Shown here one piece after another: positions 31,446 through 36,766 of a stretch of DNA of 64,000 nucleotides. Source of the stretch: Chloroflexota bacterium (lineage in GTDB: Bacteria > Chloroflexota > Dehalococcoidia > Bin125); the NCBI GenBank assembly GCA_026707145.1, contig JAPOXK010000021.1, positions 233,588-297,587 on the forward strand, given 5' to 3'. The notes beneath the pieces are model-generated. The model ran no database searches. It saw only the letters and a program-made list of their open reading frames with translations, and was not told the DNA's origin. Every line of letters begins with the position of its first letter. The first letter of the stretch is position 1. Both the position numbers and the translations under genes were made by a program.

Positions 31446-31895
31446 TTAGAAGCCCTCTGGAAGTCTCCCTTTACCTACGAGCAGCCGCGCCTCACGAAGC
31501 CGCTGGGCATGGCTGTTCTGCAGAGCATCGAACGGATCACCCACGGCCTCTTGCCAGACCTCGCTCGCGATGAGGCGGTCTCGAATCTCCTCTACTCCCC
31601 TCCACCATTCCCAGTCGCGCTCCATGGGACGCGGCACCGCCAACTCCATCTGCGCCTGGCGGTTCCGAACCGCGCAGAACCATGTGTGCCGGCGCCAGAT
31701 CCCCGCCCGCATCAGCACCACCAGGGTCTCGTTTGCGTCGTACGCCGCCCGCAGCCGGAAATTGTGAATGGAAAACTGGCCGGACCGCTCCCCTGTGCGC
31801 AGCATCCCGATCCGAGTCAGCGCCTCCGCCAGCGCCACCAAAGCCGCTAGGCGATCCGGATCCAGATTGACCGCTTCGAGATCAGTGATCGTCAC
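31446..31895 (-). CDS. Hypothetical protein
   Basis: Coherent ORF divergent from 32019 gene; no family recognised. Confidence 0.55.
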   Translation of the reverse strand: MTITDLEAVNLDPDRLAALVALAEALTRIGMLRTGERSGQFSIHNFRLRAAYDANETLVVLMRAGIWRRHTWFCAVRNRQAQMELAVPRPMERDWEWWRGVEEIRDRLIASEVWQEAVGDPFDALQNSHAQRLREARLLVGKGRLPEGF

Positions 31896-31912: not shown

Positions 31913-31967
31913 TTGACAAGACGGAACACGTGTTCTAAAGTTTACATACATTACGAACGAATGTTCC
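31913..31967 (+). promoter_or_regulatory. Sigma70-like promoter with two LexA/SOS-box-like operators
   Basis: TTGACA (31913-31918)-17 nt-TAAAGT (31936-31941); GGAACACGTGTTCT (31923-31936) and CGAACGAATGTTCC (31954-31967), both GAAC-N4-GTTC. Confidence 0.75.
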
Positions 31968-32018
31968 GCACGCCGGTTCGGAATCGATCCGACCCGGCGG
32001 GAATCGAAAGAGGACGCT

Positions 32019-32240
32019 ATGGCACTTACCGTCGTCATTCTCCTCCTCACTGCCGCAATCGGCTCCTGGCTTCTCTGGCAATGGTGGGTGGGTGCGTTGG
32101 CGGGGACGATCGAGGAGGACCGCCGTGTCTCCCGGTCGGCCCCCGCGACCCCCGCTATCGCCGATCCGACCGCGTTCCTTCCCGTTACGCACCGGACCCG
32201 CGTTCCTTCACGCTACCGCTTTCCCTTTCAGGCCGCGTAA
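32019..32240 (+). CDS. Small single-TM protein, candidate SOS-induced gene
   Basis: MALTVVILLLTAAIGSWLLWQWWVGALAGTIEEDRRVSRSAPATPAIADPTAFLPV...; directly downstream of SOS-box promoter. Confidence 0.6.
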   Translation: MALTVVILLLTAAIGSWLLWQWWVGALAGTIEEDRRVSRSAPATPAIADPTAFLPVTHRTRVPSRYRFPFQAA

Positions 32241-34312: not shown

Positions 34313-35460
<1,148 letters not shown>

Positions 35461-35638: not shown

Positions 35639-36766
35639 TCAGGCCGGCCATGGCGCCAAGGTGATCGGCACCTCCAGCATCGCTCCGTCGCGCAGCACCT
35701 GGAACGGCAGGGTCTCACCCACCTCTCGTGCATCGATCAGCACAGCCAACTCATCGAAATCGTCCAGTGGTTCATCGGCCACCGCTACGATCCGATCTCC
35801 CCCGATCAGCCCTGCTGCCTGGGCCGGGCTCCCGCTCACCACGGCACCGATCGGCAGGCCAGAATCTCCGTCCGGGACCCCGCCGCTGATCCCGATCCAG
35901 GGATGCTGAATCGCCTCACCCTTGATCATCTGCGGCAGGAAGCGCGTAACCAGGTTCACCGGCACGGCAAAGTTCGTCCCTACGGAGCCACGCACAGGAC
36001 TCTCCGCGGCCGCATTCACGCCGATCACCTCTCCGGCGGCGTTGATCAACGGCCCGCCGGAATTTCCCGGGTTCAGCGCCGCGTCGGTTTGGATTAACCC
36101 TCGCTGCAAGCGGCCACCGCTCAGCAAGGGCGGCCGCGTCCGGCTCGTCGCCGAGATGATGCCCGTGGTCAAGGTACGCTGCAGACCAAAGGGATGTCCG
36201 ATCGCCGCGACAGGCTCGCCGACGATCAACGCATCGGAATCCCCCAGCCGTACCGGTGCGACCGCCCATCCCTCTAGCTCTACCCGCACGACCGCGAGGT
36301 CGTTGGCGCTATCGAATCCCAGCACCGTCCCATCCAGCGTGACACCGTCGCTCAGTTCTACCGTTACAGCCGAAGCGCCTTGCACCACGTGATAGTTCGT
36401 CACGATGTGACCGCTCGCGTCGACGAAAAATCCCGTCCCGGCTCCGCCGTCGGCGAGAACACTTACCACGGCCGGCTCCACTGCCGTGAAGATCGCGATC
36501 GGGTCGAACACCCCGGTACTCTCAGCGGCGCCTTGTGTCGCTGGTTCCGCCGTGATCGCTGCGTCGTCCGCCTTTGGAGGTACCGTCAGAAGCGTGTCGC
36601 CGGATCGATCGCTTGGTCCATCTGCGCCGGGTATCGTCGCGCTCGTCAGCGGCGGTGTCTCTCCGTTTGCCGGACTGTCGTTACCGGCAAACGCCAGCAC
36701 AATGAGGGCAGCTGCGACCGCTGCCGCCAGTGCAGAGGCCGTGCTCGTTAGAACAGTGCGCATCAT
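35639..36766 (-). CDS. HtrA/DegP-like trypsin-like serine protease with PDZ domain
   Basis: IVTNYHVV (His), NDLAVV (Asp), [11 protein letters not shown] (Ser), C-terminal PDZ (AVVSGSPAQAAGLIGGDRIVAV). Confidence 0.93.
   Translation of the reverse strand: MMRTVLTSTASALAAAVAAALIVLAFAGNDSPANGETPPLTSATIPGADGPSDRSGDTLLTVPPKADDAAITAEPATQGAAESTGVFDPIAIFTAVEPAVVSVLADGGAGTGFFVDASGHIVTNYHVVQGASAVTVELSDGVTLDGTVLGFDSANDLAVVRVELEGWAVAPVRLGDSDALIVGEPVAAIGHPFGLQRTLTTGIISATSRTRPPLLSGGRLQRGLIQTDAALNPGNSGGPLINAAGEVIGVNAAAESPVRGSVGTNFAVPVNLVTRFLPQMIKGEAIQHPWIGISGGVPDGDSGLPIGAVVSGSPAQAAGLIGGDRIVAVADEPLDDFDELAVLIDAREVGETLPFQVLRDGAMLEVPITLAPWPA

Follow-up and report, generated by a model that had tools for sequence, protein, structure and literature searches.

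Among small membrane proteins under LexA control, those with a known role mostly inhibit a late step of cell division. In Caulobacter crescentus, this is the case of SidA, a LexA-controlled inner-membrane protein of 29 aa that acts on FtsW (PMC4211646). SosA of Staphylococcus aureus, with 77 aa and one N-terminal transmembrane (TM) segment, is SOS-induced and arrests division in this organism (PMC6851548); its C-terminal end controls turnover, is extracellular and is a likely CtpA substrate. YneA of Bacillus subtilis and ChiZ of Mycobacterium are SOS-induced small membrane proteins that carry a LysM domain. The TM domain of YneA, which is degraded by CtpA and DdcP, binds TM7 of FtsW, and FtsW binding has been predicted for several SOS membrane inhibitors (PMC13396833). 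TisB of Escherichia coli, an SOS-induced small membrane peptide as well, is a dormancy toxin (PMC11575346). With regard to regulation, doubled SOS boxes keep harmful products silent in E. coli (PMC2994835). A literature search for a Chloroflexota division checkpoint under SOS control found no paper.

The window analysed here, that is, the whole stretch of 64,000 nucleotides, comes from a genome of 2.42 Mb in 28 contigs that is about 93% complete. It contains a 73-aa ORF preceded by two LexA-like boxes, which we read as encoding a LexA-repressed single-pass inhibitor of a membrane partner, probably short-lived and with the divisome as the most likely target; we give this reading as a whole a probability of about 0.57. 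Its regulatory part, LexA control, is near certain as judged from the sequence. The features of the locus, in window coordinates, are:

31446-31895, minus strand: divergent gene for a 149-aa hypothetical protein, with a similar protein upstream in G004 and G006
31913-31918, plus strand: -35 hexamer TTGACA, read from the sequence
31923-31936, plus strand: LexA operator 1, the 14-mer GGAACACGTGTTCT, inside the promoter spacer and at the same position in relatives
31924-31935: core of operator 1, GAACACGTGTTC, within the 17-bp spacer (31919-31935)
31936-31941, plus strand: -10 hexamer TAAAGT, which abuts operator 1 directly
31954-31967 (core 31955-31966), plus strand: LexA operator 2, CGAACGAATGTTCC, near the expected transcription start
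32007-32014, plus strand: probable ribosome-binding site AAAGAGGA, just 5' of the ATG
32019-32240, plus strand: ORF of the predicted 73-aa single-pass membrane protein, the putative SOS-controlled gene, with operator-bearing homologues and purifying selection in relatives
32019-32087, plus strand: residues 1-23, a predicted TM helix with juxtamembrane W-L-L-W-Q-W-W, which form the conserved core according to alignments and hydrophobicity
32229-32237, plus strand: C-terminal QAA, a candidate degradation signal in view of the -AA bias among members and the tmRNA tag of the genome
32348-33049, plus strand: Crp/FNR-type regulator gene that has a promoter-like sequence of its own and is a conserved downstream neighbour within the bacterial family

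The preliminary description had proposed two boxes 31 bp apart in a TTGACA-17-TAAAGT promoter, the second being perfect and the first retaining the core GAAC-N4-GTTC. Direct reading of the sequence bears out the arrangement, in which the 31 bp correspond to about three helical turns. Base-by-base comparison with the Gram-positive-type consensus CGAACRNRYGTTYC likewise agrees, operator 2 fitting it at every position and operator 1 deviating at the two outermost bases. The 73-aa ORF starts 52 bp past the second operator core. Furthermore, the expectation that lexA would be present, and that the lexA and recA promoters would carry a matching operator, holds in this genome. It has one lexA and one recA, with the GAAC-N4-GTTC cores GAACACACGTTC and GAACGGGTGTTC upstream of lexA and recA, 44 bp 5' of the recA ORF and 70 bp 5' of the called lexA ORF. 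Single cores were dropped as evidence, their number in the 2.42 Mb (28, versus 23 for the reversed control pattern) not being significant alone. Pairs of cores at most 50 bp apart are expected by chance about 0.016 times per genome, and the 31-bp-spaced pair is the only close pair found, with none for the reversed control.

A first search with the single protein gave weak matches in its own bacterial family and mostly noise beyond it, one of the weak matches (G001) also having two perfect boxes, 29 bp apart. Members were gathered by profile, by tandem-box search and then by a larger profile, with new profile matches taken in order of E-value and some with in-frame stop codons skipped. The 49 members used for counting comprise 38 found by protein similarity alone, ten found via tandem boxes and the window's own gene. 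From these sequence comparisons, the small membrane protein is a family that recurs across Dehalococcoidia and not a lone gene, and this class-wide extent is absent from the preliminary description. A stricter profile search gave no match in 9 of the 20 genomes of its own bacterial family, and a phylum-wide profile search returned, outside the class, only two weak matches that were treated as noise. A scan of the genome collection with the small-protein alignment yielded no confirmed relative, and Pfam, NCBIfam, PHROGs and PADLOC have no family for the members, giving isolated weak matches to single members only.

The tandem operators accompany the protein in most members across the class. Boxes were counted at up to one mismatch within 170 bp upstream, and 574 windows from the same loci served as background; the ten members found via tandem boxes were not counted in this test, and the window's own gene was set aside. 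At least two boxes lie upstream of 34 of the 38 protein-only members, compared with 3/574 background windows. The fetched locus L218, which is not member-like and is excluded from the 49, would change the first figure to 34/39 if counted as a failure. Across all members, 45/49 have two or more boxes upstream, and two (G003 and G227) have no upstream box at this mismatch level. The inner operator bases, which were left free in the search, are a purine at position 5 in 98/100 boxes and a pyrimidine at position 8 in 95/100, which fits the R-N-N-Y pattern of LexA. The family thus shares the palindrome of the Gram-positive-type operator, inner R and Y positions included. It differs from this operator in that its boxes are in tandem, with the first inside the promoter spacer, and in that the second base is free in many relatives, where the deviations cluster at this position (GNAC-N4-GTTC).

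The promoter layout is conserved as well and can be written TTGA-N7/8-box-TAnnnT. TTGA is found 11 or 12 bp 5' of the first box in 34/50 pairs and TA directly 3' of it in 43/50, with TAnnnT there in most; these positions indicate that, for most members, the promoter spacer is occupied by the first box, which directly adjoins the -10 element. The second box lies 16-34 bp past the first, most commonly 32-33. Among relatives in the same bacterial family, the core is found upstream of most lexA genes and a one-mismatch version at some others. The proposed LexA/SOS control of the small gene is therefore strongly supported by the motif at lexA and recA, the class-wide tandem operator, the conserved promoter layout and the inner bases, which fit LexA without having been searched for. 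LexA binding and induction of the 73-aa gene can be predicted from these sequences with little doubt. Separately, in one genus the lexA operator is degenerate (GAACATCAGTAC; L073, L088 of G002 and L089 of G017) and is accompanied by degenerate small-gene boxes, a pairing that may reflect drifted LexA specificity.

The 73-aa protein (32019-32240), which had been described as having an N-terminal TM segment, indeed shows this feature by hydrophobicity, and membrane insertion is very probable on these grounds. Its order is one N-terminal TM helix, LLWQWW and a basic, presumably disordered tail with a terminal AA; the G000 protein reads MALTVVILLLTAAIGSWLLWQWW and then the tail, and the best hydrophobic 19-residue window starts at the N-terminus. 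Members range from 28 to 91 aa and have an uncharged N-terminal helix, a leucine shared by all aligned sequences and, at the edge of the membrane, a [QE]-[WYF] motif, followed in most by a basic, proline-rich tail. Five of them (G086, G114, G178, G168 and G198) end at 28-32 aa, soon after the QWW-type motif, which suggests that helix and motif form the core. The dN/dS values, 0.13-0.58 in 20 pairs, indicate purifying selection, as expected for translated functional ORFs. The proteins have no LysM domain after the TM segment (no Pfam match). The pattern of charges favours a cytoplasmic location of the basic tail, topology being judged by charge alone.

The final Ala-Ala matters for ssrA-type recognition. 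An -AA ending is found in 28/49 members but in only 7/493 background long ORFs (1.4%), and the C-terminus of the family is often RRAA; the proteins of genus g3 lack the ending. The tmRNA of the genome encodes the tag GEKELALAA, and ClpXP recognises ssrA-tagged proteins by a C-terminus of the ssrA kind (PMC7652416). The resemblance of the -AA end to this tag, together with ClpXP recognition, makes a turnover signal plausible, and we consider the chances that this C-terminus is a degron to be evenly balanced. Were the tail extracellular, the -AA end could be read by a C-terminal processing protease, but the charge pattern favours the inside.

The mechanism that we propose would operate as follows. 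In the undamaged cell, LexA dimers would occupy both operators, in the spacer and near the transcription start, and impose tight repression; the silencing of harmful products by doubled SOS boxes in E. coli suits an inhibitor role. Tandem boxes are found in the class before lexA and recA too, as well as before polymerase and uncharacterised genes, so that pairing alone is no proof of a toxic product. Upon damage, RecA would trigger LexA cleavage and the 73-aa protein would be made and inserted as a single N-terminal helix devoid of charged residues. This helix and the Q-W/Y juxtamembrane motif would then delay division by binding a membrane partner, which most likely belongs to the late divisome (FtsW/FtsI), and the -AA C-terminus would let a tag-recognising protease clear the protein after repair.

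Since the family matches no known division inhibitor at the level of sequence families, its function is assigned by analogy. The 28-32 aa members equal SidA in size, but there is no sequence-family match between the two, FtsW has been shown as a target for SidA only, and most members differ from SidA by an added basic tail with a terminal AA. SosA is alike in its single N-terminal TM segment and its SOS induction, which is predicted for the family, and the candidate -AA signal would parallel the control of SosA turnover by its C-terminal end. Nonetheless it has no sequence-family match to the family either, and the family tail would be, by charge alone, cytoplasmic with an ssrA-like end where that of SosA is extracellular. 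YneA and ChiZ, as SOS-induced small membrane proteins, resemble the presumably SOS-induced family, except that the LysM domain is absent from it. What we infer as the best available reading, a candidate checkpoint, is strengthened by the conserved helix-only core, the 28-32 aa members, the -AA end and the presence in the genome of FtsZ and two FtsW/RodA (SEDS) proteins.

By analogy with these systems, division arrest by the 73-aa protein is somewhat favoured, and the cassette is probably the class's previously unnamed brake on division after DNA damage; FtsW as the target is a tentative proposal. The more specific view of a class-wide micro-protein family that stops division via the helix and the Q-W motif, and is cleared via its built-in ssrA-like C-terminus, is possible but not favoured. 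Such an off-switch is, as far as we know, not used by SidA, SosA or YneA. What is new here is the class-wide family with its tandem operators and ssrA-like end. It provides a candidate division checkpoint, operators included, across many uncultured lineages, a minimal version of 28-32 aa that makes the binding of a divisome partner directly testable, a usable description of the class's LexA operator and a testable idea on how such an inhibitor is switched off.

The genes around the cassette bear on a different role, in which the small membrane protein would be an adaptor with some other SOS or stress function, for instance the anchoring or regulation of a repair polymerase, of a protease, of a transporter or of the adjacent regulator, and would leave division unaffected. 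In G072 (L111, from 1501), the DNA polymerase IV gene lies directly 3' of the small gene and shares its tandem operator. In the bacterial family of the window's genome, a Crp/FNR gene follows; it adjoins the small gene in 10 genomes, lies about 1.3 kb further on in G001 and begins about 100 bp past the 73-aa ORF in the window. The closest named relatives of this Crp/FNR protein (66-77% identity) come from metagenome-derived genomes that carry the label Chloroflexi or Dehalococcoidia, and on this basis the class is taken to be Dehalococcoidia (Chloroflexota). Across bacterial families, however, the neighbours vary (Crp/FNR, pol IV, unrelated ORFs) while operator and small gene stay paired, which points to a cassette that is independent of any neighbour and makes the adaptor role unlikely. 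Scanning short fragments from the neighbours against Pfam gave no match.

A role such as that of TisB, in which the SOS peptide would lower the membrane potential or slow growth and lead to a dormant, damage-tolerant state with the divisome untouched, would agree with the very short members (28-32 aa), the membrane helix and the tight double operator. It is nevertheless quite unlikely, since the helix is uncharged, unlike an amphipathic pore former, and the conserved aromatic Q-W/Y juxtamembrane motif and the tail suggest a protein partner.

Alternatively, the operators could control the Crp/FNR gene downstream or the 149-aa gene on the opposite strand, the small ORF being a bystander leader peptide. 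Operator 1 is just 28 bp from the divergent ORF, and the Crp/FNR gene is close by. The upstream divergent gene, however, changes with the genus, encoding either the 149-aa hypothetical protein or an enoyl-CoA hydratase, which argues for assigning the operators to the small gene, whose product is under purifying selection. The Crp/FNR gene has promoter-like sequence of its own and is not beside the small gene in other bacterial families. The divergent gene is probably not a target of the operators and the Crp/FNR gene probably lies outside the SOS unit, so that a bystander ORF is highly improbable. As for chance operators before a spurious ORF, the count of single cores barely exceeds the control, but the pair expectation of 0.016 and the conservation of promoter layout and protein in relatives in practice refute it.

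Further along the window, an HtrA-like serine protease frame (34313-35198, minus strand) is seemingly disrupted twice, by a frameshift and by a stop codon in frame. It adjoins an intact 375-aa HtrA-like copy at 35639-36766 and is probably a decayed duplicate.

Across the wider class, the tandem box pair is present in 68/393 genomes and the reversed control pattern in only a handful. Besides the small gene, it picks lexA (L135, L160 and L161), recA (L148) and a Y-family polymerase-like gene (L131). In some Dehalococcoidia, a second type of SOS-linked small membrane protein, of 63-85 aa and with two hydrophobic segments, sits behind tandem LexA boxes (L143, L144, L145, L146 and L149, boxes at about 801); G118, G288 and G342 also carry the helix-Q-W family. 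An uncharacterised ORF of 240-276 aa follows tandem boxes in L127-L130 and L165 (from 801 or 1501), with a cinA-like gene divergent on the other side of the boxes in several of these genomes. In one bacterial family (L116-L118, from 1501), the boxes precede a conserved protein of 434-436 aa, beginning MKTPTTYQREIATAV, to which no role was assigned. Near-identical tandem-box stretches, found in L102, L104 and further copies in G010 (C8, C25, C37, C40) and G017 (C13, C20, C22), occur three or four times per genome 5' of short related ORFs and are possibly a mobile element. Additionally, the window's own genome has a perfect box, AGAACGTACGTTCT, flanked on one side by a large serine recombinase and on the other by a divergently encoded HTH protein (C22:20245; L019:2046), a setting that resembles an SOS-controlled mobile element, and a box, AGAACTGACGTTCT, about 200 bp 5' of a FitA-like antitoxin/PIN toxin pair (C13:11298; L033:1999).
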